From a virus, in IMG/VR virus record IMGVR_UViG_3300044614_001117, positions 1-49,134 of that record: a stretch of DNA of 49,134 nucleotides; one strand, 5' to 3'. The position numbers and the translations under genes are program-made. Positions 1 to 45,148 of this stretch are shown piece after piece (the stretch's first letter is position 1; the number at the start of each line of letters is the position of its first letter). Under the pieces are notes generated by a model. It searched no databases. It saw only the letters and a program-made list of their open reading frames with translations, and was not told the origin of the DNA.

Positions 1-3000
1 AAATGCTCATTAGCTTTAGCTTGTAGTTCTGTTGCTTGTTTGTATTGATTGATGGCTTCTGCCATCTGAGGGTCGCCTTCTGGATTTCTTAATCCTTCTA
101 ATACCTTATTGAACATGGGACTCATTTCTGTCCCTGATTCTCTCATCATAGACTCTAGCATATTGGCTTTCAACTGATTTTGATTTTCTCCCAACATAGG
201 AGCCAACATCTTAAATGCTTCTAATGTATCGCTTCTGTCTTGTGCAGCAGCAGAATCAGCGGCTTCCTGTGCTTCTTTCATACTGGCACCGCTTTGTAAA
301 GCCTCGTTATAGGCTTCTTGCACTCTTACGGACTCCCACATATTATTGGTTTGGCCGTTCATGTTGCGTTCTAAACGATCAAAAGCACCGCTTAACTTGG
401 CTTGGTCCTTGGGAGATGAGGACACATATCTTTCTAGTATATTTAGTCCTGCTTCATTCTTAGCTCTTAGTTCTCCAATTTTATTTAGAGCTGCTTGAGC
501 TACTTCTGTGCTTTCTGATAGTCCTTTAAGAGCAGCATAATTTTCCCTTAAAGACATAGTTGTAGATGCTAACTCTCTGTTAAATGCTACTATATCCTTT
601 TGATTTCTTGGTCCTCCTTGGGACGCATTGTTCATTGACGCTTGTTGTCCTTGTCTTAATTGTTCTAATCGTCCTATATTATTAAATATCGCTTCTGGGT
701 CTGTTGTTCCAGCCTGACTCATAACTCCAGCCCTAGCGTCTCTCTTACTAGCGGTAAAAGATATAGTTTTTCCTAGAGCTTTTGCTAGATCTGTTTCTCC
801 ACGAGCGCGAATATCAGAAGCTCTTCTGAATTTCTCGTTAGAAGAAATCTGAGTATTCACCATTTCATTTGTGGCTTGAGCATAACTATTAAGCGACTCT
901 TGGTAAAATTCTAATGCTTTGACTGCTGTTTCTTGTGCTCTCTTAGTGGCTTGAATAGTCTTGCCAAGAGCCGATGACTCATTAAACAGCTGCCTAAAGT
1001 CTTTTTTATCATCACTGCTGGTTCTTGACGAAGTGACGTCCGCTGCTACTTGACGAGATAAAGTTTGTTTTAGCGCAGCATCAATATTTAATTTTCCAAG
1101 TTCATCTTCTATATTTTTACCTATACGAGCTTCTATTTTCCCGCTACTAGCTTTTGGATCTTGTTCTATTGTGCTATTAATTGTTGATAGTATTGTTTCT
1201 TCCAATTTTGGACCAAATTCTAATAAGCCCTTCATATTAGCGGCTTGACCACCAAAAAATTGTGAACCTACATTTGCAGCAGCAGATCTATCTGTTTGAC
1301 TAGAGACATTCGGATTTTGCAGAATATTGAGTGCGTCTATCCTAGCTGCCCCTACCTTAGCATCTCCAGTCATAGATGCTTGCATCAAATCTGTAGCATC
1401 GGCTAATTTGTTTAAAGAATGTGTTACAGAATTAATGCTCTGCTCCATATTACTGAGCATTCTTTCCAAGCCATATAATAAACTACTACTTTGTCTGTCT
1501 GCCTGTTCACTATTTCGTTGTCTAATAGCTTGAACTTCTTGTTGTCTAACAGCATTAGATGCTGTAAATTGTATTAGTTCTTGTTTACGCGCTTCTCTGA
1601 CTTGTCTAGATACACTCAAATCTGCATCTATCAACCTTAAGCTTTCTTCTACTTTAGCATTAGATCTAGCCAGTACTTCTGCTTGTTGAGCCCAGCCCGG
1701 ATCCTTCATTATGTCTGAGGATGTTTCTCCAGCCTTAAATCTAGCGGAGTTTTGCTGTTCTATCATAGAGGCTACTTTTGCAAATTGCTCCGATGATTTA
1801 GCTGCATTTTGTGGTGCTAGTTCTCTGGTATATTGCTCTTGTGTGCGGCCCGTTACATCTAAAAGAGACCCAAAATAAGCCATACTGCCTTTTTGACTTA
1901 ATATATCTGCTCTCTGAGATCGTCCTTCTTGGGAACCTCCACCAAGAGCTAGTGTTTCTCCAATTACATTAGATGTACTCCATTGAGGATTAGTTTTGCT
2001 AATATCTGCTAATGTCTTTGCAGCAGATGCGGCTCTACTTATTTCCATTCCAGCCGATTTTAACTGATTGGCATTCTCTACGGTATTTTGATTATAAGAA
2101 GCCAATGCTTCTGATGCATTCTTCAAACTATTTTCTAGAATCTGTGTAGCTCTTTCTAATTTATTCCTACGCAAAGTATCTGTAATTGCTATAAAAGCAG
2201 ATGCTGCTGCGTTAAATGCTCCGACGACCAAAGCAGCAGGACCGGCCAAAGCAGATAGTGAACCAGTAATGCCACTTATCACTTTAGGTAGATTGCCCGC
2301 TAACTTACCTACCATGCCTCCTCCAGTATCAAGTCCGCCACCTATACGGCCAACAATGTTCTTTAAAAATCCAGGACTCATTCCGTCTGCAAAAGTAGAT
2401 ACTCTTCTACTGGCATCGATTAATGTTGAGGAGAAATTTGATAATGTTTTGGATGCGTCTTCAGAAGTACCTGCCTTTGCTATGAATTCTAATCCTTTAT
2501 TAAATCCATAGAATAATGCCTGAGTATTTCCTATGCTTGTAGACAATGATGATAGTGTACTACCAACTAAAGTAGTAGAGCCGACAAATTGACCCAAAGC
2601 ACTAGTAGCAACAGCAGCCGCGCCACTATACAACAAAGACTGTTTTGTCATATTCTGTATAGCTACTACATTATCTTGTATAGATTTAGCATAATCAGTA
2701 TTATCTGGAACAGTGGTCGATCCTCTTGCTGTAGACTGAGCTGCTGTTCTCATTTCTCCAGAGGATAGTACTGCCCCTCCTCTAACAGAAGCCATGCGAC
2801 TCCTAGCCTCATTAATTGCATCAGCCTGATCGGCAGTTGCTGATGTTAGTCTATTCTGAGCAGCAGCTTGCACAGCAGCAAATGCAGCGGCGTCTGCTCT
2901 TGCTTTTGCTTCGCTTGCTGTAGCTCCTGCTAATCTTTGTTCCTGATATGTTTGTAGTTTCGTTGCTTTGGCTGCTTCTTCTAGCTCCATCATATATCTT

Positions 3001-6000
3001 TGTATCGCTGCTTCTGCATCTCCAGCAGGAGGACTGCCCGGTGGACCTCCACCAGCAGGAGGACTAGGAGGTGATGGTGGAGAAGTTGGTGGTCCGCTAG
3101 GAGCAGGAGTTGGTGCGGTAGAGGTAGCTGCCGAGCCGATGATATCATCTTTTGTTATACCGCTGGTAATTGCTAAAAATGCATCTAGAGCAGCTTTATT
3201 TTTACCAAGACTTTCTGCCATTGCTTTGGCACCGATATCTACAAGCTCAAATGATGGAATATTGTTTGCCTTGCCTCCTCTTTGACCTCCTCCAGTTACC
3301 TCATATCCAACCATTCTTTGAACCATTTGCAATACCAATTTAGGATCTTGCATAGGATTACCCAAACGATATTTATCAGAACTCTTATCTGGATTTTCGT
3401 TCATATGCAACTGTTTGCCAATATCCCACGTTGCCCAACTTTCGCTTTGACCAGCGATACTAGGAGCTTGTCCAATTCCTGACATAGCAGTAGAGAACAT
3501 ATCTCTCATTTGAGAAACTAAGGCATCGACTTTGGTATTGTCTTGTTTTGTTAACTCTTCTGCATATTTTTGACCGGAAGGGCTGATTGCGGTATCTGTT
3601 TGTCCGCTAACATCGCTATAATTCATGCGTTTGCGATAATATTCAGTATCTCTTACTGGTAAAGGCGGCAATGGAGGTGGAGTGATAGTAGGAGGAGATA
3701 CTGATATTGGCTGTGGAGAAGTACCAACAGCAGCTTTCATAGCGTCTGATGCTGATACTGGATTTCCTGCATTTCTGTTGGCTAGTCTTGCCTGTCTAGC
3801 AGTTAATGTGTCCTCTTGCATTCTTTGGAGATCTTGTGAAGAATATCCTTCTGATTTAGCTATAGATTGTTCTTGAGTAGCTACTCTGGATCTATTAATT
3901 TTATCTAATTCTACCACTACTCCTGTAGACATCTGTCTAAAAGCTTCTACTATATCTGGACCCAAAGAATCAGTTTGTTTTCTAATGCTTGACATAGACC
4001 TTTTGACAGTGCTCATAGCGGCATTCCATGATGATGTGTCTAATAGGACACTAGCATCAGATAATGAACCGATAGTAACACCAAAAGCATCTTTTAATTC
4101 TTGCGGAAATGACGATATGATACTGTCTATTCTATTTTGTATTTGTGCTAATTCTTTAGCATTAATTGCAACAGTTTCTACTCTTTGTAATTCTCCACCA
4201 TCAGCAAACTTTTGTATTCCTATAGCCCCGCCCTTATTGAAGCCCAATGCTTCAGTGGCTTTTTTCCTAATAACAAAACTTCCTACTGGCAATCCTACTG
4301 GACCAAAAGAATCAGTATTTCCACTACCAGGAACTATACCAACGTCTCCACCACCAGCATATCTACCCATGCCATTTTTATCGGCATGATTCATACGACG
4401 CAACCTACCGTATCCTATTTTCTTAGCTAGTTTTGGACCAATTACAGCTTCTCCGGGAGTCAACAAAGCTGGAACACTACCTCCTTCGGCAAATCCTCCG
4501 GTTTGTAGTCCTTGAGCTTGACGTTGAAAGAATTGCATGGCCATTGTTCTAGAGTCTTGTTTCTGGTTTGCTCTAGTAACAGATTTGGGATCATTAATTA
4601 AAGAGGGACTCTTAGTATATCCGCTTTGTAGTACCCATGCTAAGTCTGTTGGGGGTGGCCAAGTTTCTCTTCTACCATAAAGTTTAGGATCTATAAGCGC
4701 GTTATTTTTTGTCCAATCTTCAGGTTCTAATGGGACTTTTTTAACGTCTGATCTATTTTTGAAATAATATTCCCATACTTTTTTTGCATCTCCACTAACC
4801 ATAGCCCTATCTGATGTAAGCATAGCTCCTTGTTCTGTTGCTGCTTCCATAACAGCATCATATAATTTAGGACCACCGCCTCCAGTAGCTTTAGACAATC
4901 CAACAGTATACAGATTGTTTTTGGCTTTTTTAGCCATAACAAATCCCGACACTGTATCATTTTTAACATATCCAGCATTTATTGTAGATCCATCAGATGT
5001 TAGAGATATGCGTGGATATTGTTTTTCTTCTTTACGAGCTGGCTGCTGATTATTTCCATCTCCTAATATTTCTATATTAGATGGCTTTAATGGTGATTGT
5101 CCAACATACTTTAAAACTAAACCGTATGGTTTTTGGAATAGTTTACTCTCGAATTCATTAACTAATGCAGGGTCTCCGGCTGTTAATCTCTGCATTAATT
5201 TGCCAATAAGTTCGCCCTCTCTAACATTCCCGTCGGTACCACTATAAAGCGTTCTTCTCGCACCGCCTTGAACTGTATATTGTTGCCCGTCATCTCCGGT
5301 AAGCGTTTGTGATCCTTCTTGTACTCTTATGCCAGATGACATAATTCCTTTTTCTAGGTTCTTATCAACTTTACCCAATAGGCTAATCGGAGCATCATCT
5401 TTCATGGATAGCGTTGGCTGTATTTTATCAAAATTTTCAGTCATCCATTTAATGATTAAAGACTTTTGCAATTCATAGTCTAGATCATAATTTTCTGGTG
5501 TAAGAGCTTCATTGAATGTTAACACCATCGGTTTCCCTGTTGTGTCCCCAGAAACAACGGTTCCAAAACCGCCGCCAGCAACTCTCATTTTGGCTTGAGT
5601 AACTGCCCTGTCTTTTTCTGTGTAAACATAAAATCCTGCTCCTTGCCCATAGCCAGTAGCAATATTGCTTAATGCTCCTTTTTCTTTGAAGCTATTAAGG
5701 ACACTATCATTAGTTCCGGTATTACTACCATGAAATAAACTAACTATTCCACCACCGGCAAATCTGGCGATATTTGGATTTTCTAAAAAATATCTTGCAA
5801 ACTCATTACGTGCTCTTTCAAAAGCACTGCCATCTAATGTTCTCTTTATTTCTGTAGGCAGATCGGGATCTAACCCGAAAAATTGTGCAGCGCGTCCAAG
5901 CCCATTTGGGAAGTCGATAGCTCTATTCGATTCAAGTTGATCGATGGGTGGAAGATTAGCTCCTAAAAGTGCCAGGGCTTTTTCTATAACTGCGCCTTCT

Positions 6001-9000
6001 ATATTGCCCTGACCCATTAATTCATCTAATTCTGGTTTGGCTTTCGGCTCAGTATATAAGAATCCTTTCTTTCCACTCTTAGATACGGCATTTAAATTAT
6101 CTAGACTATCATCTATTAATTTTTCTGTTTGCGCTAAATTGGCTGCCTTCGCTGCTGCTATATTGGTAGATGCTCCTGAGCTTACTCCTGTAATATCTGA
6201 TTCTTTGTATGGTAGTCCAAAAGTTTGCAAAGTTTTTGCGAGTAAATCGGCAGTTGCTTGTGGTCTTGCGGTCAATATACGAGTTTGTCTAATAAAATTA
6301 GGATCTTCATCTATAAGTGTTTTAAGTTTTGCTCCTAATCTAGTTAATTTAGCTTTTTTAAGAGCTTCTGCTACAGCATCCCTATTAGAGTATTGGGGAA
6401 TATTTGGTTTACCATTAGCATCTAAAATGTCCCCACCAGAAACCAAAGTCTCATCGAAATCAAAAACAAGAGAACCACCATCAAAAATATCTGCATATTG
6501 CACATTCTCCGCTAATCTTATAGAAGATTCAGAAGTTTCTTGTTGCATTTGACGAACAGCATTAAGGTATTTACCTTTGAATCCCCTAACATATGCATAA
6601 ATATTTTTTGGATCTTTATCTGTACCGATATTCCACTCAAAATTTTTATTGTAATCTAAAGCATTATTAGAATCAACTAGTCCTGCTACAGCAACTTTCG
6701 GCAGTCTAGATATTCTTTCTACTTCGGCAGCACTTTCAATATTCCCAGCAGATAGTGCCCTATCGATTACTTTTGCCGCTTCTTCTATTCTCCTGCCCTG
6801 TTTGAGATTACTAACTCTTAGCAAGCTATCTAATTCTCTGTCTCCACCGCCTACTCCTAGTATTTTTTTAACTCCAGCTATTTTACCAAGAGCTTCTAAT
6901 TCTTGAATTATAGTATCTTGCAAGCTTTGACCTCTTTGTTGCGCTAGTTCTGCAACTCCTCCTATAGAAAATTTTTGTATTAGTCCTCCTAGATTAAATC
7001 CTGGAATACCGGCCGCTCTTTGTTTTTCTATCCATTGATAAAATTGTTTCTTTTGATCTTCTGCCCAAAAATAATCTAAGGTTCCTAACATTGCTTCATC
7101 TATAGAAGATCCAGAAGACTGTTCTTTAAAATAGGAACCAATAGATTTTTTATCTATTCTGTATCTTAATAATTTGCTAACTAAATCCATATCATCTGTT
7201 GGTATAGATCTAAATTTAGCTTCTCCAATAGCGTCTATAGAATTATCTTTAAGTTTTCTAACAAGATCTATAGGATAGTCAGATTGGTTGCTGGCACTTT
7301 CCCATTTGCCAGATAATTTGGCTGCCAATACTTCTTCATATGCTTTACCCCATCGGCCTTCAGCGCTCATTAGTTTGCCAACAGAAGATTCCCCTGTAGC
7401 TGGAGGAGCCTTCCTTCTTCGATCTGATTGTCTAATTTGTCTTAATCTATCTCTATTTTCTGGACTAACATCAACGCCTTCATAGCTTTTATACTTACCA
7501 CCACCCATTGAAGCCGAGGCGTTTGCTGTGTCCCATATTTTTTGAAAATCTTCTTTTTCTGTTAATTTTACCGTTCTTCTATTAATTCTAATAGCAGCTT
7601 TGTCTGCTAATCTATCATTCGCTGATTTTTCTATATTGGATGCTGGGAACAATACTGAATTAATTGTATTAGATCCGGAGCGACCCAGTAATTCATCTAT
7701 TGTAAAATATTCCGTTAGTCCACCGGCAGCAAATTTTTTAGCTTGTCCTTTATTTATTGCAACAAGATTACCCTTACCATAAGCCTGTACTGCTTTGCGA
7801 TTAACAACAAATTCTCCGGGTTCAAGCATGGACGGAACTCTATCTCCTCTGCCAGACCCAGGAACACTACCGCCCTTAGCAAACTTTAATATACGACCAC
7901 CACTGTTAGCGGTAACAGTTCCTCCACCGCCTCCGAAATCTGTACTAGCAATAGTATTATTCAGAGCAACAACCTCATTGGTCAGCTGAGCAATTGCGCT
8001 ATTTCCTAAATTATCTATGGATGCTTGTAGTGGAGTTATAGCCCCTGCTAATGCACCCATAGTTGAGCCCAAATTATTTAGCGCTGTAGTATTAGCGTCT
8101 AAATACCTAGAATTGTCTGTAACGTCCGCCGCTGCCCTATTATTTCTAGCAGATGATGCCGCTCCTCCTCCTTGGTCTCCTGGTTTAACTTTTTGCAGAC
8201 CACCGACGAATCCTCCAACAAAACTTGTTAAAGCCTTAGCTCCTTTAATAGCTCCGATAGTAGCAAGAATAGGGAGTAGTGGTCTAGCAACATCAGCAAC
8301 TTTGATAAAAGTGTTTGCTAATGTTAGTCCTAAGCTTACTAAGGTCTGAAAACTATCGCTTTTGCCAATTTCTCTGATAAGGGCTACAAATGACTCTCTG
8401 GTTTTACTAAATTGTACTGCTAACGATGCTTGTGCTTTTATGGCATCAGCGGCTAATGAATTTTGTCCTCTTTGAGCAACGGTCAAGGCTTGTTGGGCTG
8501 TGCCGAACTCCTGAATTAACGGCAGCACCTTGCCAATCTGTCTAAATCCACCAAGTTCTTCTACTATTCTGGAAAAGCTAACATCTCTAGGATCAAGCTT
8601 GCCTAGACCTTCACTTAATAATTGTACAGCCTTATACGCCCCTACGAATTTACCTTGAACATCTAATAAATTAACTCCATACTCTTTAAGAGCTTCGATA
8701 GTATCTTCTCTTTGAATACGAGTAAAAATTGTTCTTAAACCGGTAGCGATAGTTTCCGCACTTTCACGAGTTGTAGCACGAACGCTTGTGAATACCGCGA
8801 TGAATTCATTTAATGCGTCTGTACCTTCGCTTACTCCTTTACTGGCAGCAGCAAACACACCACCGGTACGTTGAATAGCAGTAATAATATCACTAGCTTC
8901 GACAGCAAATCCAGCAGCAACAGCATTTATAGAACCTAGGGCATTATCCAAGTCTTCTGTACTAATTTTAAACTGTCTCATCAAAGCAATACTTCCTTCG

Positions 9001-9737
9001 ACAGTATTATTCAGATCATCGAACGATGGAGCTAGAGCTGTCAATGCTAATGCTCTCAACGCTTGGTCTGTTTCTCTTGCGCTCAAACCAGCCTGAGCCA
9101 ATGTGTCTGATATGCGAATTAAATCACTGGATGCAACTCCAAGCCCTGTTGATAATCCGGTTATGGTATCTGTAATTCTATTTAATTCATTATATGATTC
9201 GCCTGTAATTTGAGTTAATCTGACTAATTGTCTATCAAACTCTATAAATTCGGATGTAGCCTTGCTTACAGCATTATAAAGTCCATAAATTACTGATGTA
9301 GCAGCATTAAACGCAGCAAATCTACGAACAGCCAGAGCAGATTGGCGACCAAACTCTTCCATTTCGTCTTTGGCTTCTACAGTATTTTTTCTTACTCTAG
9401 CTAATTGTCTTGATGTCTGTTCGGCAGAGCTTACAATTCTCTCCATAGAGTTATTTGAACCGCCTAAAGCATTACTTAATCCATTGAGAGCAGCAACTAA
9501 ACCAGTGATATTATTTGTCGTTCTTGCAGAAGCGGTGGCTGTTATTTCAAGCTCTCTATTAAGTCTTCCCAGGGCTGTGGCATTTCCTAGAATAGACCTT
9601 TCTGCCGCTCTATCTATTTTAAGTTTAACATTAGCATCAATTGAACCTATTTCTCTTCTAATGGCTGCGGCAACCTGTTTAAGATTACCTGGTCCTCTTA
9701 GATTAAGTTCAGCAGTAAGGTTGAAGGCTTTGGCCAT
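1..9737 (-). CDS. Giant tape measure protein with embedded enzyme domains (C-terminus beyond the window)
   Basis: An open minus-strand frame runs from ATG at 9737 to the left edge without a stop, giving at least 3,245 residues. Residues about 100-520 read like the TP901/PhageMin_Tail tape measure core (amphipathic helices rich in Ala, Thr and Ser), followed by a hydrophobic stretch near 462-516. Residues about 620-1850 hold enzyme-like domains (nuclease-like 775-860, HAD-like 1085-1220, ADP-ribosyltransferase-like 1326-1420, acetyltransferase-like 1570-1670) separated by Gly-rich linkers with FAxGG and PGEFV motifs. Residues about 1850-3245 are helical and Gln/Ala/Ser-rich, with Pro-rich stretches near 2010-2030 and 2202-2238 and a hydrophobic segment near 2480-2520. 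Tape measures set tail length and enter the host envelope during infection. Position after the tail tube and small tail-assembly candidates supports the call. The Shine-Dalgarno site is weak and a terminator-like hairpin precedes the gene. Confidence 0.9.
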   Translation of the reverse strand, partial: MAKAFNLTAELNLRGPGNLKQVAAAIRREIGSIDANVKLKIDRAAERSILGNATALGRLNRELEITATASARTTNNITGLVAALNGLSNALGGSNNSMERIVSSAEQTSRQLARVRKNTVEAKDEMEEFGRQSALAVRRFAAFNAATSVIYGLYNAVSKATSEFIEFDRQLVRLTQITGESYNELNRITDTITGLSTGLGVASSDLIRISDTLAQAGLSARETDQALRALALTALAPSFDDLNNTVEGSIALMRQFKISTEDLDNALGSINAVAAGFAVEASDIITAIQRTGGVFAAASKGVSEGTDALNEFIAVFTSVRATTRESAETIATGLRTIFTRIQREDTIEALKEYGVNLLDVQGKFVGAYKAVQLLSEGLGKLDPRDVSFSRIVEELGGFRQIGKVLPLIQEFGTAQQALTVAQRGQNSLAADAIKAQASLAVQFSKTRESFVALIREIGKSDSFQTLVSLGLTLANTFIKVADVARPLLPILATIGAIKGAKALTSFVGGFVGGLQKVKPGDQGGGAASSARNNRAAADVTDNSRYLDANTTALNNLGSTMGALAGAITPLQASIDNLGNSAIAQLTNEVVALNNTIASTDFGGGGGTVTANSGGRILKFAKGGSVPGSGRGDRVPSMLEPGEFVVNRKAVQAYGKGNLVAINKGQAKKFAAGGLTEYFTIDELLGRSGSNTINSVLFPASNIEKSANDRLADKAAIRINRRTVKLTEKEDFQKIWDTANASASMGGGKYKSYEGVDVSPENRDRLRQIRQSDRRRKAPPATGESSVGKLMSAEGRWGKAYEEVLAAKLSGKWESASNQSDYPIDLVRKLKDNSIDAIGEAKFRSIPTDDMDLVSKLLRYRIDKKSIGSYFKEQSSGSSIDEAMLGTLDYFWAEDQKKQFYQWIEKQRAAGIPGFNLGGLIQKFSIGGVAELAQQRGQSLQDTIIQELEALGKIAGVKKILGVGGGDRELDSLLRVSNLKQGRRIEEAAKVIDRALSAGNIESAAEVERISRLPKVAVAGLVDSNNALDYNKNFEWNIGTDKDPKNIYAYVRGFKGKYLNAVRQMQQETSESSIRLAENVQYADIFDGGSLVFDFDETLVSGGDILDANGKPNIPQYSNRDAVAEALKKAKLTRLGAKLKTLIDEDPNFIRQTRILTARPQATADLLAKTLQTFGLPYKESDITGVSSGASTNIAAAKAANLAQTEKLIDDSLDNLNAVSKSGKKGFLYTEPKAKPELDELMGQGNIEGAVIEKALALLGANLPPIDQLESNRAIDFPNGLGRAAQFFGLDPDLPTEIKRTLDGSAFERARNEFARYFLENPNIARFAGGGIVSLFHGSNTGTNDSVLNSFKEKGALSNIATGYGQGAGFYVYTEKDRAVTQAKMRVAGGGFGTVVSGDTTGKPMVLTFNEALTPENYDLDYELQKSLIIKWMTENFDKIQPTLSMKDDAPISLLGKVDKNLEKGIMSSGIRVQEGSQTLTGDDGQQYTVQGGARRTLYSGTDGNVREGELIGKLMQRLTAGDPALVNEFESKLFQKPYGLVLKYVGQSPLKPSNIEILGDGNNQQPARKEEKQYPRISLTSDGSTINAGYVKNDTVSGFVMAKKAKNNLYTVGLSKATGGGGPKLYDAVMEAATEQGAMLTSDRAMVSGDAKKVWEYYFKNRSDVKKVPLEPEDWTKNNALIDPKLYGRRETWPPPTDLAWVLQSGYTKSPSLINDPKSVTRANQKQDSRTMAMQFFQRQAQGLQTGGFAEGGSVPALLTPGEAVIGPKLAKKIGYGRLRRMNHADKNGMGRYAGGGDVGIVPGSGNTDSFGPVGLPVGSFVIRKKATEALGFNKGGAIGIQKFADGGELQRVETVAINAKELAQIQNRIDSIISSFPQELKDAFGVTIGSLSDASVLLDTSSWNAAMSTVKRSMSSIRKQTDSLGPDIVEAFRQMSTGVVVELDKINRSRVATQEQSIAKSEGYSSQDLQRMQEDTLTARQARLANRNAGNPVSASDAMKAAVGTSPQPISVSPPTITPPPLPPLPVRDTEYYRKRMNYSDVSGQTDTAISPSGQKYAEELTKQDNTKVDALVSQMRDMFSTAMSGIGQAPSIAGQSESWATWDIGKQLHMNENPDKSSDKYRLGNPMQDPKLVLQMVQRMVGYEVTGGGQRGGKANNIPSFELVDIGAKAMAESLGKNKAALDAFLAITSGITKDDIIGSAATSTAPTPAPSGPPTSPPSPPSPPAGGGPPGSPPAGDAEAAIQRYMMELEEAAKATKLQTYQEQRLAGATASEAKARADAAAFAAVQAAAQNRLTSATADQADAINEARSRMASVRGGAVLSSGEMRTAAQSTARGSTTVPDNTDYAKSIQDNVVAIQNMTKQSLLYSGAAAVATSALGQFVGSTTLVGSTLSSLSTSIGNTQALFYGFNKGLEFIAKAGTSEDASKTLSNFSSTLIDASRRVSTFADGMSPGFLKNIVGRIGGGLDTGGGMVGKLAGNLPKVISGITGSLSALAGPAALVVGAFNAAASAFIAITDTLRRNKLERATQILENSLKNASEALASYNQNTVENANQLKSAGMEISRAASAAKTLADISKTNPQWSTSNVIGETLALGGGSQEGRSQRADILSQKGSMAYFGSLLDVTGRTQEQYTRELAPQNAAKSSEQFAKVASMIEQQNSARFKAGETSSDIMKDPGWAQQAEVLARSNAKVEESLRLIDADLSVSRQVREARKQELIQFTASNAVRQQEVQAIRQRNSEQADRQSSSLLYGLERMLSNMEQSINSVTHSLNKLADATDLMQASMTGDAKVGAARIDALNILQNPNVSSQTDRSAAANVGSQFFGGQAANMKGLLEFGPKLEETILSTINSTIEQDPKASSGKIEARIGKNIEDELGKLNIDAALKQTLSRQVAADVTSSRTSSDDKKDFRQLFNESSALGKTIQATKRAQETAVKALEFYQESLNSYAQATNEMVNTQISSNEKFRRASDIRARGETDLAKALGKTISFTASKRDARAGVMSQAGTTDPEAIFNNIGRLEQLRQGQQASMNNASQGGPRNQKDIVAFNRELASTTMSLRENYAALKGLSESTEVAQAALNKIGELRAKNEAGLNILERYVSSSPKDQAKLSGAFDRLERNMNGQTNNMWESVRVQEAYNEALQSGASMKEAQEAADSAAAQDRSDTLEAFKMLAPMLGENQNQLKANMLESMMRESGTEMSPMFNKVLEGLRNPEGDPQMAEAINQYKQATELQAKANEH
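4728..5030 (-). other. Acetyltransferase (GNAT)-like domain inside the tape measure protein
   Basis: Tape measure residues about 1570-1670. A strand (LYTVGLSKA) is followed by a Gly-rich turn, a helix with LYDAVMEAA (Tyr1626) and then MLTSDRAMVSGDAKKVWEYY, with Asp1643 in the SDR triplet. The order strand, glycine loop, helix, then a strand ending in Ser-Asp-Arg and an aromatic helix resembles the acetyl-CoA-binding half of GNAT folds. The canonical Q/RxxGxG/A loop is not perfect, so this is tentative. Confidence 0.4.
5478..5762 (-). other. ADP-ribosyltransferase-like domain inside the tape measure protein
   Basis: Tape measure residues about 1326-1420, starting directly after a FAGGG linker. 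The segment LFHGSN (His1336-Gly1337) is followed about 30 residues later by GAGFYVYT (from Gly1368), then by an alanine-rich helix. His-Gly followed by GFY resembles the His and Tyr of H-Y-E type ADP-ribosyltransferases, including DUF3990-like families. The catalytic Glu is not obvious; DLDYELQ further on is a candidate. This is a fold guess from two motifs. Confidence 0.45.
6078..6485 (-). other. HAD-superfamily phosphatase-like domain inside the tape measure protein
   Basis: Tape measure residues about 1085-1220. HAD motif I is VFDFDET with Asp1093, Asp1095 and Thr1097. Motif II is ILTARP with Thr1156, and motif IV is LIDDSLDN with Asp1209 and Asp1210. Spacing and order fit a C1-capped or capless HAD phosphatase, and the catalytic residues are intact, so it is likely active or recently so. 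The substrate cannot be told. It sits between the linkers at F923 and F1326. Confidence 0.75.
7158..7415 (-). other. PD-(D/E)XK nuclease-like domain inside the tape measure protein
   Basis: Tape measure residues about 775-860. A helix with Glu793 and Glu802/803 (AEGRWGKAYEEVLA) is followed by Asp824 in YPIDLV and, 15 residues on, by Glu839-Ala-Lys841 in IGEAKF. An N-terminal acidic helix, then D, then ExK on the next strand, is the order of the PD-(D/E)XK restriction-endonuclease-like core. It lies between the linkers at F669 and F923. The fold is inferred from motif order only. Confidence 0.5.
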
Positions 9738-15835: not shown

Positions 15836-16780
15836 TTAGCAATAATATGAATTTTCGGCTATTTTGTTGTATCTTTTCCAAAATCCATTATATGATTTAT
15901 GTTTCCAGTTAATAAGTAAATCATTAAAATTAGTTTTACAATATATACCACTGACTAGTATATTAGTGTCTAAATAGCATCTATTATTATAACAGCATAT
16001 TAAATTATAGTGTTTTTGTTGTTCTGTATTCAAAATACTTATAGTATCGGTATTGGTTCCATTCACTATATGTTTTGCAGACAATCCTACTATGTATCCG
16101 AACACTCTTTCTAAGGAGTGCTCATACGTTGGTCCGAATCTATCAGAAGCTTTTCCAGATATTAATAAAGCATATAAATTATCTATAATCTTATCATTAA
16201 AATATTGCTGAAACAATTCTGTACGGGACCAAAAGATACTACCAGCAATGAATGTTAGATCTGTTCTCTGTGATTGATATTGATCTAGTCCTAGAGTGTC
16301 TTGTAGAATTTCTTGAATTAGTAATTGATTAAAACCCTCTTTATCTCTATTTAGCATTAATCCAGTATTTCCTATCATTCAAATATTTTTATTTGAATCT
16401 ATCATTTCTAGATTAGATAAAAAAATATCTTTATTACCTATTAATGAATGTACTAATAAAATTCTCCAATCAATATTTTTATGCTCTCCCCATAAGGATT
16501 GTTTAGAGTGCAATTTAATAAAATATGGATATTCAGAACTGTCAATATTTTTAAGTTGTAATAAGAATGGTCCGATATCTGAACCCTTATTAGGAAGTAT
16601 AGTCAGGTCATAGAAAAAATTTTTTTCTAATTTGAATCTGACAGATTCTTCTTTTTTAGTGATGTGATCGCATATTGCAACGCACAATTTTATGTAGGAA
16701 CTGATGGGCTTTAAAAGAGAAATATATTCATCTAATAATGAATCATCATACAAATACAACAATACTAATACTTTTGTCAT
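15836..16780 (-). pseudogene. RgpF-type glycosyltransferase interrupted by an in-frame TGA
   Basis: Two open frames, 16780-16379 (133 residues) and 16378-15836 (180 residues), are in the same reading frame and separated only by TGA at 16381-16379. The first half has LPNKGSDIGPFL and YFIKLHSKQS, and the second FIAGSIFWSRTELF. Together they match the order of rhamnan-synthesis protein F (RgpF, PF05045) glycosyltransferases, where a Gly would be expected at the TGA (NI-G-MIGNTG). One base change from GGA would explain it. The second half has an ATG right after the stop but no Shine-Dalgarno site. Either it is a broken gene or the stop is read through. The start overlaps the collagen-like gene by 4 bases. 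Confidence 0.65.
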
Positions 16781-17319
16781 ATCTTATTAATAAATACTGT
16801 TCCTGTCCATATAATGTTTTTTGAATTTATCCCATTTACAGCAAAAACTATAGTCCCAGTATTGCTATCTGTATTGATCGCAACAACAAGACTATTCATT
16901 CCGCTATCAGAAAAAATAAGTCCAGAATTAATCCAAGAAGACATAACTCCAGAGGAATTTCTTTTAACTGCTCCTTGTATATTAAAAGCTGCGGCCAAGT
17001 CATCAGTAACATTATAAGCAGAAACTGCCGCATAAAAAGATGATATAGATTTTTGAGGAATATACAGCGCAGTATTAGAGTCTGTATTTAAAAAATATGT
17101 ATTGCTATCAGTTGTTGCTCCGCTCAACTTAACGATCTCATTCGGCTTGCTAGGAGGTGCTGCCCTTCCTCTAGGTCCACGAGCGCCAGGAGGTCCGGGA
17201 GGACCATCTTTACCAGCAGGACCAGGAAAGCCGCTTGTAATTTCTATTATATTAGACTCAATAAAATTATCTATGACAGATAACCTATCTCCATCATTAA
17301 TGGCAATAATTTCTGCCAT
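16777..17319 (-). CDS. Collagen-like fibre protein with a receptor-tip-type C-terminus
   Basis: About 180 residues. A short N-terminal segment precedes eight uninterrupted Gly-X-Y triplets (from GFPGPAGKDG, about residues 30-53), which should form a trimeric collagen helix. The C-terminal 100 residues match the C-terminus of the giant fibre at 19367-22573 (shared features: IPxK, SAYNxT, NIxGAxxRN, xDxN, NIxW), so the two fibres probably end in the same trimeric tip fold. Tandem ATGs overlap the stop of the previous gene; AGGAGG lies 6 bases before the second (17319), which I chose, and 3 before the first (17322). Confidence 0.8.
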   Translation of the reverse strand: MAEIIAINDGDRLSVIDNFIESNIIEITSGFPGPAGKDGPPGPPGARGPRGRAAPPSKPNEIVKLSGATTDSNTYFLNTDSNTALYIPQKSISSFYAAVSAYNVTDDLAAAFNIQGAVKRNSSGVMSSWINSGLIFSDSGMNSLVVAINTDSNTGTIVFAVNGINSKNIIWTGTVFINKI

Positions 17320-18749
17320 CATTGACCTCCTGATGTGTTGTATTTAATAAGTTTTGGATTATTAACAGTTCCAGTAATAGAGCTTTCGATATTGAAAGAA
17401 GTGGTATTCGTCACTGTACTAAAAACAGGTGTGCTAGATATTGTTCTTGTTGTTGCGACCGTACCTGTTCCATTATCATATTCAATAATAATGATATCTC
17501 CATTATCTAAATTATATGTTGAATCACCACTTATGGTAACTGATGTTCCGGATAGAGTTATGTCTCTATGAATATCTCCACAGGCATTAAAATTAATGGC
17601 ACTATTCGATGATTCATTTTGGAAATATACTATTAGTTTTACTCCTCCTATCAGTCCAGAATCTTTTTCATTTTCATCAATAGAATATAGTTTCCAATCA
17701 CCAAAAACATTCATTCCCTCAAATGTCTTAAGCCCACTACCATATACGGTAATATTTTTATTAGAATCTGATGAATTAAAAGCACCATAGGGTAGAGGAA
17801 ATAATAGAGATGCTGGATTTGTACATCCTGGTAAAGCAGATGCTAAATTTTTATTCGCAATAAGCGTATTATTATAATCCATAACATTTGCAACTGTAGG
17901 TGCAGACCCATCAGGTCTAGTTATAGCATAGTCTGATAAAATAAAATTCAAATTTTTTGGTAAATTGTTATTAGAGAACTTATTTTTATCTAGCAATAAA
18001 ACTCCACTACCATTATGTGCTAATAACATGCGAACATCAGTAGGGTTAGAATGAGTAAAACCATCAAAGAAAACGTCTATACGTTCTATTATTCTTGACT
18101 CTGTGACAGTAACTCCTATAGGAAATGGACTGCTCTTTCCGTAGGGATTTTCATTATTAATAGTTACTCTATCTTGTAAATAAACAACTGTTGAATCTGT
18201 AGATGTATTAACTAAAGAATATATAACAGCATTTCCTCCTATAAATTCGCACGGAGAACCTACACAACTATCTAATATACTATAGCTTGAAAGGTTTAAC
18301 TCTGACCCAAATACTGGTTGAGATGATTCCTCTGTTATTGTGCAGCTCGGTATGGTCTCGGACGGTATTAGTCTGCGTCTCAATGTGATGGTTCCTTGTA
18401 ATAGTCTTTTAACAACCCTGGACCCTCCCGTATAAAATAAATCAGGAGAGGTTACTTCTAATTCATAACTAGCAGTATCCCACGTATAAGCATTTGTGGT
18501 TTCTGCTGGTAGTCTAAGCTTTATCAGTCCTTGATTTGGAATTATACTAAAAGAATAATTGGGAGTAGTAGTATTGCCAGTAGTGCTAAATGTAATCAAA
18601 TTGGTATTAGAGCCACTGAGAGGCTGAATTCTCATAACGACACAATAATTAGAAATATCAATAGGTACTTGAGACGAATTAAGATATTTAAAATCTATAG
18701 CAAAAATTGTTCCTTGCTCTATAGCAAAATTATATTCTGTAGCTGCCAT
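17319..18749 (-). CDS. Adsorption-region structural protein with a proprotein-convertase P-like domain
   Basis: A 476-residue protein. Residues 1-128 are a paralogue of the stand-alone 132-residue protein at 30937-31335 (shared: YxFxIEQGxxF, P-I-D, Y-x-LEVTSPD/LELQSPD, then GGxxxxxRLLxGTI). Residues about 195-378 resemble a P/Homo B domain, a beta-sandwich seen next to proteases and in secreted proteins: ERIDVFFDGFTHSNPTDVRMLL early, then GDWKLYSIDENEKDSGLIGG. The C-terminus is a further beta-rich module. AAGG lies 8 bases before the ATG. The N-terminal module probably anchors it to the virion and the rest is displayed. Confidence 0.65.
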   Translation of the reverse strand: MAATEYNFAIEQGTIFAIDFKYLNSSQVPIDISNYCVVMRIQPLSGSNTNLITFSTTGNTTTPNYSFSIIPNQGLIKLRLPAETTNAYTWDTASYELEVTSPDLFYTGGSRVVKRLLQGTITLRRRLIPSETIPSCTITEESSQPVFGSELNLSSYSILDSCVGSPCEFIGGNAVIYSLVNTSTDSTVVYLQDRVTINNENPYGKSSPFPIGVTVTESRIIERIDVFFDGFTHSNPTDVRMLLAHNGSGVLLLDKNKFSNNNLPKNLNFILSDYAITRPDGSAPTVANVMDYNNTLIANKNLASALPGCTNPASLLFPLPYGAFNSSDSNKNITVYGSGLKTFEGMNVFGDWKLYSIDENEKDSGLIGGVKLIVYFQNESSNSAINFNACGDIHRDITLSGTSVTISGDSTYNLDNGDIIIIEYDNGTGTVATTRTISSTPVFSTVTNTTSFNIESSITGTVNNPKLIKYNTSGGQ

Positions 18750-36780: not shown

Positions 36781-38817
36781 TTAATCTTTATATACTCCTT
36801 TATATATATCATCATTGGCTCCTGAGGTAAACCAATCTGGCCCTTTATACATTGTAGTATCTTGAGATGACACAATATTTCTCCTAAAGTCACCAATCAT
36901 ATCATATTCTACTGGCTTTAATGTTCTATTCATTTGTCTAGCTAGCATATTAGCTATTACTAGAGCACTATATCTATCTTTGCGTAATCTTCCCTTTTTA
37001 CCTCCTGGTAATTTTACTTCTGGAGTATCCCAACGATCTCTAGCATTAGGGCCGGTGCTGGTTTGCGTCATTACTATAGTGGTCAATTCATTTTTAAGTT
37101 CTTCTATTTCTAAAATACATTCGCTAGCACTGTCATAGATAGGATTTAAATCAGTAGTCATAATGTCTTTATTTTCTTTATCTAATGCTAAACCTAGAGT
37201 TAAATTATCAAAGCGAGGAAATAGTAATACTTTATCTTCTAGATCTTTACGTAATCCATGATTAGCTTGACTTGTCCAATCTGCCTTCGCAAATTGTACT
37301 AATTCTAGAATATGTAATCCGGATTGAGCATCTGTGTCTTTAGATTTATCGTAATCTATAACTGGCCATATAACATGCTCTCCTTCTTCTATCTTAGAAG
37401 GATCATGTAGCGCTTCTTCTATGGCAACACCACCACCCTGAGCATCCATGCCGATACGGACAGGAGGAAAACTTTTCATCAAATTGCGTATCTTGCGAGC
37501 ACAAAATCCATAAAAGTCATACTCATTAGCTAGACCAGCTTTTTGTCTATCCTTAAAGTTGTTTCTATTAGTAGTCCAGCAATATACTATTCTAGAATGA
37601 TCAGGATGTACTTCTAATATCACTATGCTAAAATTATCTTGTTCGCTAGCAGGATCGATTCCATAGATATACTTATAATTGCCATTACCCTGAACAACAG
37701 AATCAAAAATAATTGGCTTATTATTAATTACAATATTATTTGCTTCAGTACATACACAGCTTTCTATTAAACTACGCCTGAAAAATCCTTCACTATCATT
37801 AACAAAGCAAGCAGCATATTCCATATTGTAAATACCGGTATGAATTGTTGCTTTGGCTCGTGAAACCTGTTTATCATCCATGAAACCTTTAGGAATTAAT
37901 TCATAAGGAATACGAATAATACTATAGTCTCTCCAATTAAAGTTAGACGGAACTTCTCCTTTAAATATTTCTTCTAACTTACGTTGGTCACCCTTGCTTT
38001 CAATGATAGACTTGTATCTTTTCCAATAACTAGCAAAATGTTTAAATCCATAATCTGCTGTTCCAGATATGATTGCCTGATTACCCATTTTTAAATTAAT
38101 GACATCTAATTCTGGTGTCCATAAACCAGAATCAATCATCGCCTGTCTTTTGGCTTGTTCTTTAACATTCTGAATAGGGCTAGCAGAAACAGCAGCGAAC
38201 CCCGAGACTACTGTTTCATATATTTCGGGACTGATAGAAGCAAACTCGTCAGCAATAATTATATGAGCGCGTAGACCTCTAATCTTACTTCCGTCGCCCA
38301 TAGGAATAGCAATTGTCCAACTATCTCCTAGGCGGATAGTACATCTATCCACATCTCTGCGAGGGCCATCATCATTTCCATTAAAGATACTTCTTAGTAT
38401 AGGACTATTTCTCCAAATAGTTTCCATATACTCGAAAATGATTTTACTTTGACGGAATGCGGCGCCTACAACCACAATCTTTGTCCCAGGAAAAAATGCG
38501 CAACGGATAATACAATATAGAGCCAATAGGAACGACTTACCCCAACCACGACTAGCAATATACATAGGAAATGCGCGAATCCAAAATTCTTGTAAAATAC
38601 AAATTTGCATAGGATGCAATTCAATATCAAATAATAGTTTACAAGTAGCACCCAAGTATCTGGGATCTCTCATAATTTTCATAAGATGTAAGTCTGGATT
38701 TTCTATATCCTCCTTATTCCTATGTATCATTATATTCTTATCAAGAGATAAGACAGATAAATCGCCTAGACCTAACCAGGCATCATCAAACTGTTTTGTT
38801 TTTGCTGTGGACTTCAA
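36781..38817 (-). CDS. Terminase large subunit
   Basis: A 678-residue packaging motor protein. The ATPase has a Walker A variant ASRGWGKS (residues 88-95) and Walker B HIIIADE (Asp190-Glu191). The nuclease half has YGIDPAS (Asp388) and RIGMDAQGGG (Asp458), as in RNase H-like terminase nucleases, followed by a C-terminal domain with an acidic helix. The start codon appears to be TTG at 38817, with AAGG 9 bases upstream; the next ATG (residue 30) would still leave the motifs intact. It overlaps the ERCC4 gene by 32 bases. Confidence 0.95.
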   Translation of the reverse strand: MKSTAKTKQFDDAWLGLGDLSVLSLDKNIMIHRNKEDIENPDLHLMKIMRDPRYLGATCKLLFDIELHPMQICILQEFWIRAFPMYIASRGWGKSFLLALYCIIRCAFFPGTKIVVVGAAFRQSKIIFEYMETIWRNSPILRSIFNGNDDGPRRDVDRCTIRLGDSWTIAIPMGDGSKIRGLRAHIIIADEFASISPEIYETVVSGFAAVSASPIQNVKEQAKRQAMIDSGLWTPELDVINLKMGNQAIISGTADYGFKHFASYWKRYKSIIESKGDQRKLEEIFKGEVPSNFNWRDYSIIRIPYELIPKGFMDDKQVSRAKATIHTGIYNMEYAACFVNDSEGFFRRSLIESCVCTEANNIVINNKPIIFDSVVQGNGNYKYIYGIDPASEQDNFSIVILEVHPDHSRIVYCWTTNRNNFKDRQKAGLANEYDFYGFCARKIRNLMKSFPPVRIGMDAQGGGVAIEEALHDPSKIEEGEHVIWPVIDYDKSKDTDAQSGLHILELVQFAKADWTSQANHGLRKDLEDKVLLFPRFDNLTLGLALDKENKDIMTTDLNPIYDSASECILEIEELKNELTTIVMTQTSTGPNARDRWDTPEVKLPGGKKGRLRKDRYSALVIANMLARQMNRTLKPVEYDMIGDFRRNIVSSQDTTMYKGPDWFTSGANDDIYKGVYKD

Positions 38818-39265
38818 GATAGTAAACCTTATTCATTATGTATTCTGCCATCTTCTCCGCATCAGATGGACATCCGCAAAAAACAACTTTGATATTATGA
38901 AACATTTGCCATTCAAGAATGTGCTTCATAATAAAACTAGGACTAATTTTTACTTTGTCCCACATATGTTTTGGTAAAGAAGATCCTATTGGATAACTGA
39001 GAACATTTTCTAAATCAAACTCTAATAGAATATAAGCATATTTTGTTTTAGACAATCTATCAATCACATCTTTAAATCTAGATTCTATAATATTGTTAGC
39101 TATTTCATTGATACTTTTTTTGCGTTCTATTGCCAGTAAAGGCTCTAGGCCCTCTATGCTATAGTCACCAGTATCTAGCTTTCTATTAGCAGTAGTATAG
39201 TTATCAAACGACCACGGTTGTTGTTCTCGTGTGTCTACGATAATAGTGAAATTATTTTTTATCAT
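38786..39265 (-). CDS. ERCC4-type nuclease
   Basis: A 159-residue protein with the XPF/Mus81-family catalytic pattern: VDTREQQPW (Asp11), GDYSI (33-37) and AIERKKS (Glu47-Arg-Lys-Lys50). Such nucleases cut branched or flapped DNA; in phages they may trim concatemers or help recombination before packaging. It is a single catalytic domain without the HhH domains of cellular XPF. It overlaps the HNH gene by 14 bases and the large terminase by 32, so it is part of the packaging cluster. Confidence 0.85.
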   Translation of the reverse strand: MIKNNFTIIVDTREQQPWSFDNYTTANRKLDTGDYSIEGLEPLLAIERKKSINEIANNIIESRFKDVIDRLSKTKYAYILLEFDLENVLSYPIGSSLPKHMWDKVKISPSFIMKHILEWQMFHNIKVVFCGCPSDAEKMAEYIMNKVYYLEVHSKNKTV

Positions 39266-39524
39266 GATGTTGAGCTACTATTCTAAGGAATACGGCCGCA
39301 TATATGTCTTCCATCCCGGTAATCATTTTATGATGTTCTTTGCATAAAGTAATACCGTTATTAGGTTCGAAACGTAAGCCAGGATACTGAGCCCAAGGTC
39401 TAATGTGATGAGCATTTAATTTTTTCTTACAATTACATCCTGGCCATTTGCACTGAAAGTTATCTCTTGTGTAAACTAATTTTCTCCATTTTTTGTATGC
39501 TGGATCTTCAAAGTTTCTACGCAT
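39252..39524 (-). CDS. HNH endonuclease
   Basis: A 90-residue protein. The motif is C-x-W-P-G-C-x-C ... LNAHHIRPW ... NNGITLCKEHH, a zinc-bound beta-beta-alpha HNH fold with both His pairs intact. The start ATG at 39524 overlaps the dehydratase stop by 8 bases. HNH proteins next to terminase genes are often needed for packaging in long-tailed phages, although selfish homing activity is also possible. Confidence 0.85.
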   Translation of the reverse strand: MRRNFEDPAYKKWRKLVYTRDNFQCKWPGCNCKKKLNAHHIRPWAQYPGLRFEPNNGITLCKEHHKMITGMEDIYAAVFLRIVAQHHDKK

Positions 39525-40509
39525 TAGCAAAAGCCTTAATATCGCTGTCAACCATATCTTGTACTAAATCATCAAATGAAAAAGACTGTTCCCAGCCTAG
39601 TGCTTTTCTAGCCAAGTCATTTCTACCACACAGATAATCTACTTCTGCTGGACGATATAGATTCTGATCTATCTCAACATATTTAGTATAGTCTAATCCA
39701 GCATAACTAAAAGATCTTTGTAAGAAATCTAAAATTGTCCAAGTTTTACCAGTGCATATAACATAATCTCTGGGCGTATCATCTTGCAACATTAAATGCA
39801 TAGCATTCACATAGTCCTTAGCATGACCCCAATCCCTTTTAGCATTTAAATTGCCTAGCTTTAATGCTTCATTAGTTTGATGATTAATTACTTGTCCAAT
39901 ATATTTTGTAATTTTACGAGTTACAAAATTTTCTCCGCGTCTTGGGCTTTCGTGATTAAAAAGAATACCACAGCACCCAAATATGTTATAAGCATTACGG
40001 TATATTTGTACCAAACGATGACTAGCTAATTTAGCTACGCCATAAGGACTCTGTGGAATAAATGGAGTATTTTCATCTTGGTATTTGTTGTTAGCGTCAT
40101 CAATACTATAATTACTGCCAAACATTTCACTAGTACTAGCTTGATAAAATTTAGTTTCTGGAGAAGAATGGCGTATAGCATCTAAAATATTAATGACTCC
40201 CAAAGTATTAATTTGAAAGGTCGTAGTAGGTTGCGCAAAACTAGTTCCAACATGGCTCTGAGCTGCCAGATTGTAAAATTCATCTGGTTGATAATGTGAG
40301 ATAATTTGTAAACATCCACTAGGATCTGTTAAATCGAATTCTTCTAATGTAAAAAGTGGATGATTAATAATGTGCAATATTCTTTGAAAATTGTTTGTGC
40401 TATTTCTGCGATGTAATCCTATAACTCTGTATCCACGTTCTAATAATAGTTCTGATAAATATGATCCATCTTGACCAGTCACGCCAGTAACTAATGCTGT
40501 CTTATCCAT
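39517..40509 (-). CDS. gmd: GDP-mannose 4,6-dehydratase
   Basis: A 330-residue extended short-chain dehydrogenase that converts GDP-D-mannose to GDP-4-keto-6-deoxymannose, precursor of GDP-fucose, GDP-rhamnose and perosamine. The NAD(P)-binding loop is TGVTGQDGSYL (residues 8-18), with catalytic Thr126 and Glu128 in STSEMFG and Tyr156-x3-Lys160 in YGVAK. RRGENFVTRKIT and KRDWGHAKDYV are family signatures. Length is near the usual 340-370. AAGGAG lies 6 bases before the ATG, within the end of the methyltransferase gene (8-base overlap). A sugar-nucleotide enzyme among packaging genes points to glycan modification by the phage. Confidence 0.95.
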   Translation of the reverse strand: MDKTALVTGVTGQDGSYLSELLLERGYRVIGLHRRNSTNNFQRILHIINHPLFTLEEFDLTDPSGCLQIISHYQPDEFYNLAAQSHVGTSFAQPTTTFQINTLGVINILDAIRHSSPETKFYQASTSEMFGSNYSIDDANNKYQDENTPFIPQSPYGVAKLASHRLVQIYRNAYNIFGCCGILFNHESPRRGENFVTRKITKYIGQVINHQTNEALKLGNLNAKRDWGHAKDYVNAMHLMLQDDTPRDYVICTGKTWTILDFLQRSFSYAGLDYTKYVEIDQNLYRPAEVDYLCGRNDLARKALGWEQSFSFDDLVQDMVDSDIKAFANA

Positions 40510-42757: not shown

Positions 42758-42979
42758 ATGGCAACATACAAAAAGTGGACAGAGGCCGAATTGGATTTTA
42801 TCCGTAATAATCAGCAACTTTTAAGCGATGATGAACTAGCAGCAAAATTAGGCCAAATGACAGGTGGTAATGTAACAACCGCCATGATTCGCCGTCAAAG
42901 AAGGAAGCTAGGAATTCAAAAGGCCAAGGGACGTCGCCCTAAGAATCGCAATAAGGTTGTGGAAACCGGCCAAGTCTGA
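42758..42979 (+). CDS. Small HTH DNA-binding protein, candidate switch regulator
   Basis: 73 residues. WTEAELDFIRNNQQLLSDDELAAKLG is an HTH-like helical pair closely resembling the N-terminus of the small terminase candidate. It is followed by a very basic segment (MIRRQRRKLGIQ) and an AT-hook-like KGRRPKNR. The ATG at 42758 follows AAAGGA with a 7-base spacer. It is the first rightward gene, next to two overlapping promoters, and glmS follows 4 bases after its stop. A DNA-binding regulator of this switch is the natural inference. Confidence 0.7.
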   Translation: MATYKKWTEAELDFIRNNQQLLSDDELAAKLGQMTGGNVTTAMIRRQRRKLGIQKAKGRRPKNRNKVVETGQV

Positions 42980-42983
42980 AAAG

Positions 42984-44720: not shown

Positions 44721-45148
44721 TGATATACATAAGGCCAATAAATGTTAACGATAATTTTGCTCAATACATGGAGTGTGTTGAAGATTTAAATAGTTCAGGG
44801 GTGGAGCTGGCCAGTGTGGAACAGATTAAAAGGGCGTTGTCATCAAGACCAAGCAACATAATAACATATGTTATAGTGGATAAAGAATCTATTGTGGCAA
44901 CAGCCACTTGTATATTTGAAAGAAAGTTGAGATACAATCAGTTGTGCTGTCATATTGAGGATGTAGGAGTTCACAAAGATTACAGATCTCGCGGATTTGG
45001 TAAATTGATCGTGGATCACTGCATCAGTGCTGCTGTAAATAAAAGATGCTACAAAGCAAAGTTATTCTGCTCCAATGAGCTAGAGCCATTCTATAGAAGC
45101 ATGGGATTCAGAAAGAATAATCTTGGAATGGAAAAGATATTAGTTTGA
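44720..45148 (+). CDS. GNA1-type glucosamine-6-phosphate N-acetyltransferase
   Basis: A 142-residue GNAT protein. CCHIEDVGVHKDYRSRGFGK holds the GNA1 signature HIEDV (residues 78-82) and the acetyl-CoA loop RSRGFGK (89-95). CYKAKLFC (110-117) and FYRSMGF (124-130) also match eukaryotic glucosamine-6-phosphate N-acetyltransferase, which makes GlcNAc-6-P. Length is like GNA1 (about 150-180). The start overlaps the glmS stop (TAATG), so product and substrate of consecutive steps are encoded side by side. Most bacteria instead acetylate GlcN-1-P with GlmU. A generic GNAT is the alternative. Confidence 0.75.
   Translation: MIYIRPINVNDNFAQYMECVEDLNSSGVELASVEQIKRALSSRPSNIITYVIVDKESIVATATCIFERKLRYNQLCCHIEDVGVHKDYRSRGFGKLIVDHCISAAVNKRCYKAKLFCSNELEPFYRSMGFRKNNLGMEKILV

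Follow-up and report, generated by a model that had tools for sequence, protein, structure and literature searches.

Polyvalent proteins and effectors related to phage tape measure proteins (TMPs) are already known, and the extra domains known so far on TMPs themselves are lytic. According to Iyer et al. 2017 (PMC5512222), polyvalent proteins occur in phages and conjugative elements, include ADP-ribosyltransferase (ART), GNAT acetyltransferase and zincin peptidase types, and are presumed to be delivered together with DNA, the zincin perhaps freeing the component parts. Here we describe the TMP gene of a 49,134-nt stretch of viral DNA (IMG/VR record IMGVR_UViG_3300044614_001117; "the window" is this whole stretch). 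We propose that the TMP segment between the N-terminal core and the tail-length part is a cassette slot, filled with enzyme modules that fold independently and have linkers between them, and that the TMP serves as the chassis for a polyvalent early-infection effector, a reading to which we give a probability of roughly 60%.

This TMP and the polyvalent proteins alike are very large, carry several disparate enzyme domains and are encoded among virion genes. They differ in the chassis, which here is a tape measure, a term absent from the main text of PMC5512222. The signature MuF, N4 RNA polymerase and SWI2/SNF2 domains of polyvalent proteins were not seen here, and the cassette linker, the kinase-HIGH nucleotidyltransferase and the SNase modules go beyond that repertoire. 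The contractile injection system effectors Sle1 and Tme (PMC13277306) likewise join a TMP-like carrier to a variable, reconfigurable functional part; those, however, are bacterial effectors of a phage-tail-derived particle with one C-terminal functional part, whereas here the carrier is the phage's own TMP, with as many as six different modules lodged inside the chain behind the N-terminal core. A further likeness is to the T4 internal proteins (PMC3012670) and to T4 Alt, as presented in PMC5512222, which are enzymes or inhibitors that are injected and take immediate effect on the host. Each, though, is a separate protein carried in the head, and Alt belongs to the R-S-E clade whereas the ART of the window is of the H-Y type. 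The MuF polymorphic toxins of temperate phages (PMC5576092) are also virion proteins with variable enzymatic domains, but they are head proteins with one variable C-terminal toxin instead of several internal modules. Searches of the open-licence literature turned up no earlier account of a tape measure that carries several enzymes and swaps them as cassettes.

The TMP gene is a single stop-free open frame of 3,245 aa (9737..3, minus strand) that continues beyond the window edge. Its complete version, of 5,109 aa, is present on an 85.2-kb contig (L008), where the 3,245 overlapping aa are identical, confirming the initial annotation of one open frame of more than 3,245 residues. The TP901-type tape measure core proposed there was recovered as well: a Pfam scan of the window protein matched PF10145 (PhageMin_Tail) at residues 190-384 above the cut-off (E 1.3e-22), and the N-terminus matched three TMP families in PHROG, including phrog_4211 (E 1e-23) and phrog_28 (E 3.5e-20). 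The core also has a distant likeness to YomI of SPbeta (~25% identity). Its strand is shared by the gene for the terminase large subunit and by structural-type genes, and with 5,109 aa its product is a very long protein in a late structural gene block. By family match, the window protein is a genuine tape measure. From the single sequence, the Pfam, PHROG and NCBIfam scans matched only this core and recognised no family in residues 600-1800, so single-sequence family searching was insufficient for the cargo. The following features were delimited with the help of relatives.

8178..9737, minus strand: tape-measure core, residues 1-520; PF10145 at 190-384 corresponds to window 8586-9170; 143 relatives by alignment search
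7743..7901, minus strand: linker 1, residues 613-665, GGRILKFAKGGSVPGSGRGDRVPSMLEPGEFVVN...; the linker also occurs in tail proteins of other phages
7029..7739, minus strand: PD-(D/E)XK nuclease-like module (PDEXK1), residues 667-903; E801, P822, D824, E839 and K841, invariant in 6 relatives
6954..6998, minus strand: linker 2, residues 914-928, FNLGGLIQKFSIGG
6045..6929, minus strand: HAD phosphatase-like module, residues 937-1231; D1093, D1095, T1097, T1156 and D1209-D1210; catalytic core 1090-1230; 27 relatives
5787..6008, minus strand: second PD-(D/E)XK-like region (PDEXK2), residues 1244-1317; GNIEG..IE, IDFP and TEIK; 54 of 65 TMPs
5745..5765, minus strand: linker 3, residues 1325-1331, RFAGGGI
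5052..5759, minus strand: H-Y-type ADP-ribosyltransferase-like module, residues 1327-1562; H1336, Y1370 and DLDYE 1418-1422; 7 TMPs initially
4524..5033, minus strand: GNAT acetyltransferase-like module, residues 1569-1738; GGGGPKLYD and SDR 1642-1644; 13 relatives
4188..4505, minus strand: linker 4, three repeats, residues 1745-1850, FAEGGSVPALLTPGEAVI..., RYAGGG... and IQKFADGGEL; relatives have a recombination edge at the same position
3..4187, minus strand: post-cargo part of the TMP, residues 1851-3245, extending to residue 5109 in L008; ~2450-3245 kept among relatives

Relatives were collected from IMG/VR. A cargo query gave six contigs and a TMP-core query gave 143, of which 80 were kept (55-100% identity). 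Removal of redundancy left 65 TMPs, whose modules were delimited by iterative hidden Markov model searches; in these 65 the slot lies between the core and the later conserved part (window residues ~2450-3245). An iterative profile seeded with the PD-(D/E)XK module of another relative (L013) drifted onto the linkers (258 matches) and was discarded. All sequences are metagenomic, which would suit the possibility that the row of domains arose in assembly, as a chimeric contig; given dozens of distinct contigs, stop-free frames, conserved linkers and codon-level selection, we regard the chance of this as close to nil.

The window protein thus holds five modules of disparate predicted activity in one polypeptide. 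The initial annotation had proposed a row of different, non-peptidoglycan enzyme folds within the TMP and had named their motif residues, every one of which we found at its position. The row itself also stands, HAD and GNAT by structure and PD-(D/E)XK and ART by invariant motifs and predicted topology. An alignment of 27 HAD modules (mean column identity 36%) has 12 invariant columns, including D1093, D1095, T1097, D1209 and D1210, and position 1156, opening a T/S-AR motif, is T or S in every module; the chance that five pre-named columns all fall within 12 of 297 is ~4e-8 (hypergeometric estimate). The AlphaFold2 model of the module has a predicted local confidence (pLDDT) of ~85-97 in its core, and its Foldseek matches are mostly HAD phosphatases, including the T4 Pnkp 3'-phosphatase and HisB-N. 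The module accordingly shows the DxDx[TV] motif, the motif II T/S, the motif IV DD and the Rossmannoid fold of the HAD superfamily. In the GNAT module LYD 1625-1627 and SDR 1642-1644 are invariant across 13 copies, the model has the beta-beta-beta-beta-alpha-beta-alpha-beta order of GNAT topology, and the top Foldseek matches (PDB, BFVD) are almost all GNAT; we count the module as a GNAT with a loop, ATxGGGP, that is only a rough fit to the RxxGxG/A acetyl-CoA motif. Structure prediction of the segments therefore supports the HAD and GNAT folds, while the PD-(D/E)XK and ART models were of low confidence.

PD-(D/E)XK and ART identities are likely, though not proven, from conserved residues. Six aligned PDEXK1 modules share 8 invariant columns, among them D824, E839, K841, E801 and P822 (chance ~2e-5 by the same hypergeometric approach), and the alpha/beta pattern of the model fits PD-(D/E)XK, but at pLDDT ~45-65. 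In the window-type ART, H1336-G1337 and G1368-F-Y are invariant in the 7 TMP-borne copies and kept in most of 19 diverse sequences, stand-alone genes included; 14 loci of this type were found in TMPs and 9 stand alone. A conserved DxDYE offers a candidate acidic residue. Pfam gave weak DUF3990 matches in 4 of the 7 copies and ART-PolyVal in one (E 0.3), and the model has pLDDT ~40-85. This ART and the R-S-E ART found in other members fail to align with each other, and the PDEXK1 and PDEXK2 profiles show no significant likeness (hhalign probability 3%). None of the cargo segments is coiled coil, and relatives do not show free variation at the motif residues; two possibilities that could have undone the initial annotation both failed. 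Three features lie beyond it: a further PD-(D/E)XK-like motif, the linker repeats and, outside the window, the last third of the protein.

Across the 65 TMPs we counted PDEXK2 in 54, HAD in 27, a P-loop kinase with a HIGH nucleotidyltransferase in 18, zincin in 14, GNAT in 13, SNase in 11, R-S-E ART in 10, window-type ART in 7 and PDEXK1 in 6. A curated-family scan of 64 cargo regions gave HIGH_NTase1_ass in 10, ADPrib_exo_Tox in 6 and SNase in 2 (down to 1.8e-5); in the slot of one relative ADPrib_exo_Tox, marking the R-S-E ART, scored 31.8 bits against a cut-off of 23.4. ART-PolyVal appeared in one of the 64 (E 0.004). Zincin and GNAT types occur, though they were not assigned to the described polyvalent families (HYD2-type ART, phage GNAT, MPTase zincin). 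When profiles were compared with PDB sequences, SNase matched staphylococcal nuclease/thermonuclease structures (E 2e-4), the kinase-nucleotidyltransferase had NaMNAT, NMNAT and NadR-family structures among its matches (E 0.014-0.29), and the R-S-E ART matched several ADP-ribosyltransferases weakly. Of the 53 TMPs whose available sequence extends beyond residue 2,200, 39 have one or more modules in addition to PDEXK2, and 17 have three to five. Each of the 54 HAD loci lies in an open reading frame that also encodes the TMP core, as does each of the 26 zincin loci whose 5' side is uncut, so these modules seem dedicated to the TMP carrier.

The kinase-nucleotidyltransferase module, at residues 798-1191 of the TMP of L009 and in 17 relatives, fuses a P-loop kinase to a HIGH-type nucleotidyltransferase (GGFAPTTAGH, ISGTxVRD). 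It is the NadR pair in reverse order and adjoins ARTs that would consume NAD+; it may be a tail-borne enzyme of NAD+ salvage or of nucleotide signalling.

The PDEXK2 motif is less strictly kept than the others: in 52 aligned rows E is present in 49, D in 52, [DE] in 51 and K in 41, with all four in 37. The lysine is missing from 11 of the 52, as might be expected of catalytically dead modules that serve as spacers, host-factor decoys or tail lengtheners, and tape measures do tolerate variation in length. This explanation is improbable in view of the catalytic residues of HAD and PD-(D/E)XK, which are among the very few invariant columns, the invariant HExTH of the zincins, and the P-loop and ISxTxxR, kept in nearly all kinase-nucleotidyltransferase modules. 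It also sits poorly with ratios of nonsynonymous to synonymous substitution (dN/dS) far below 1. Closely related copies of the HAD, kinase-nucleotidyltransferase, zincin and GNAT modules give ~0.07-0.2 when paired, and the mostly saturated values for SNase, ART and PDEXK1 pairs were excluded. By these ratios, purifying selection acts on several of the modules.

At or near many module edges lies the motif GGx[VI]Q[KR]FAxGGxV, observed 333 times against 43 +- 6 in shuffled proteins. Module order varies between phages, ten module pairs being found in both orders, and the window and L027 share 87% of the core, yet their upstream cargo differs. The cores of L051 and L057 have 58% protein identity (dS 1.33), whereas their cargo shares a 1,152-codon block (HAD-PDEXK2-zincin-GNAT) with 92.9% nucleotide identity that opens a few residues from GGKIQKF and closes at RKFKDGG. 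Four more pairs (L041/L057, L051/L041, L040/L041 and L039/L057) share blocks of ~840-1,150 codons with 92-94% identity, each starting at a linker; all end at a linker except L039/L057, which stops inside the zincin module. Over the five pairs, 9 of 10 block edges are at or adjoin a linker. Diverged cores with near-identical cargo blocks edged by linkers indicate recent cassette exchange, and by this evidence the linkers are where recombination restocks the slot. Sequence comparison establishes four things: the modules, how well they are conserved, the linkers and the exchange of cassettes.

Regular linkers at module edges would also be expected if the TMP were a polyprotein whose cargo is excised at the linkers and acts in trans in the producing cell, for late host or superinfection control, and not in the next host. 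Processing of TMPs is known from other phages, and a zincin peptidase is present in 14 of the TMPs. The zincin is nevertheless absent from the seen part of most members, the window included, and placing late enzymes inside the ruler offers no clear gain over separate genes. Entry into the host is, moreover, described for polyvalent, internal and tape-measure proteins (PMC5512222, PMC3012670, PMC13277306). We consider a polyprotein of this kind unlikely.

The linker is not confined to this clade. In Synechococcus phage S-BM3 (L106, 3604-7617) a 1,338-aa "hypothetical" protein, encoded between gp26 and gp5 homologues, contains a closely similar linker, DSVPAYLERGEYVLN, followed by a glucosaminidase-like segment. 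Linker-borne cargo can therefore be envelope enzymes, and this hub-region protein is a possible bridge between lytic and non-lytic cargo. It also lends some weight to the view that the cargo is confined to the envelope (membrane or periplasm), where it would aid DNA passage as tail lysins do, instead of reaching the cytoplasm. The window TMP resembles YomI in its core and the S-BM3 protein in its linker, but the known extras of those two proteins degrade peptidoglycan; no module identified here does, and Pfam and NCBIfam scans gave no peptidoglycan hydrolase in the window cargo. Because the ART, GNAT, kinase and NMNAT-like domains normally require cytoplasmic NAD+, acetyl-CoA or ATP, an envelope-only role is very improbable. 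Glycine zippers have been reported for membrane passage of the type VI secretion system effector Tde1 (PMC10240207), and we considered, as an idea only, that the linkers might act similarly. In the C-terminal third of the TMP of L008, beyond the window, residues 3500-3700 contain glycine-rich hydrophobic stretches that are possibly membrane-inserting.

We return to the TMP as chassis for an early-infection effector. Tape measures sit in the tail tube and exit with the DNA (PMC13277306). In the proposed sequence of events, the modules would be built into the tail as part of the tape measure, and the cargo would exit with it, before or alongside the DNA. At the onset of infection ART, GNAT and zincin would act on host proteins, PD-(D/E)XK and SNase on nucleic acids, with possible end-healing by the kinase and HAD, and the NMNAT-like and HAD modules on nucleotides; host defence would be blunted and takeover begun. 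In zincin-bearing members the peptidase may release modules by cutting at linkers. Enzymes that need NAD+, acetyl-CoA, ATP or nucleic acid point to the host cytoplasm. The fuller picture, an uncultured clade that uses the TMP as a linker-delimited loading platform, with cassettes swapped between phages and delivered at DNA ejection so that ruler and payload are one molecule, we hold to be about evenly poised.

TMP biology, the cassette pattern and the window ART's stand-alone relatives, with their leaders, make it reasonable to infer that the cargo enters the host and acts as soon as infection starts. These relatives are small separate genes of other large phages, some of which start with MKLLLENWREFINE (L158, L161, L153), a leader that in our judgement resembles T4 capsid-targeting leaders. 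A similar leader is found on about five genes within 20 kb in L158 (9938-10663 and neighbours). The T4 internal proteins are diverse defence proteins with only the capsid-targeting sequence in common (PMC3012670), an analogy that suggests that the leader-sharing genes of L158 encode a head-packaged, ejected protein set. One ART domain may thus have two routes of delivery, the head in some phages and the tail here.

Several observations weigh against the effector reading in addition to the lysine lost from some PDEXK2 copies. The first-ranked Foldseek matches of the HAD model were drimenol synthases with poor TM-scores, the GNAT matches had weak E-values (best in PDB 0.028), and an ART fold was absent among the Foldseek matches listed. 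No confident model stands behind the PD-(D/E)XK and ART folds (pLDDT ~40-85), and HAD, GNAT, window-ART, PDEXK2 and zincin profiles gave only chance matches to PDB sequences. A tblastn search of a phage database found no cultured member, the cargo matching mainly the linker in cultured phages, and modules queried singly had no match there. Four of the 53 TMPs have no recognised module, so the cargo is not essential to the tape measure. Folded modules on several TMP copies would crowd the tail tube, which is a real difficulty, and the modules may need to be unfolded, staggered or removed beforehand.

As to tail type and host, no PF04984 sheath was found in 6 records (two of 238 kb; controls matched), among which fragments or a divergent sheath could hide one. 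A genome-contig scan for relatives gave a single 5-kb contig from an alphaproteobacterial metagenome-assembled genome of Lake Lanier, too little for naming a host.

Elsewhere in the window, 16777-17322 (minus strand) encodes a tail-region protein with a short collagen-like GPPGPPGARGPRG repeat. On the strand opposite to the structural genes, 42957-44720 (plus) encodes a GlmS-like glutamine-fructose-6-phosphate aminotransferase (best match phrog_13807), directly followed by a small GNAT-looking protein (44720-45148, plus). A GDP-mannose 4,6-dehydratase-like enzyme (39517-40509, minus) was judged by eye, as was an ERCC4/XPF-like nuclease with VDTREQQPW and AIERKK motifs (38786-39265, minus), whose gene adjoins an HNH-like gene (39252-39551).

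If delivery is true, tape measures would be carriers of early host-takeover and counter-defence enzymes, beyond their roles as ruler and channel. The cassette slot would then be a list of candidate anti-defence activities (NAD+-linked, nucleic-acid and protein-modifying), and the linker a natural building block with which to pack protein cargo into tails. The finding also raises the physical question of how chains with several globular domains each can be accommodated in the tail tube and leave through it.

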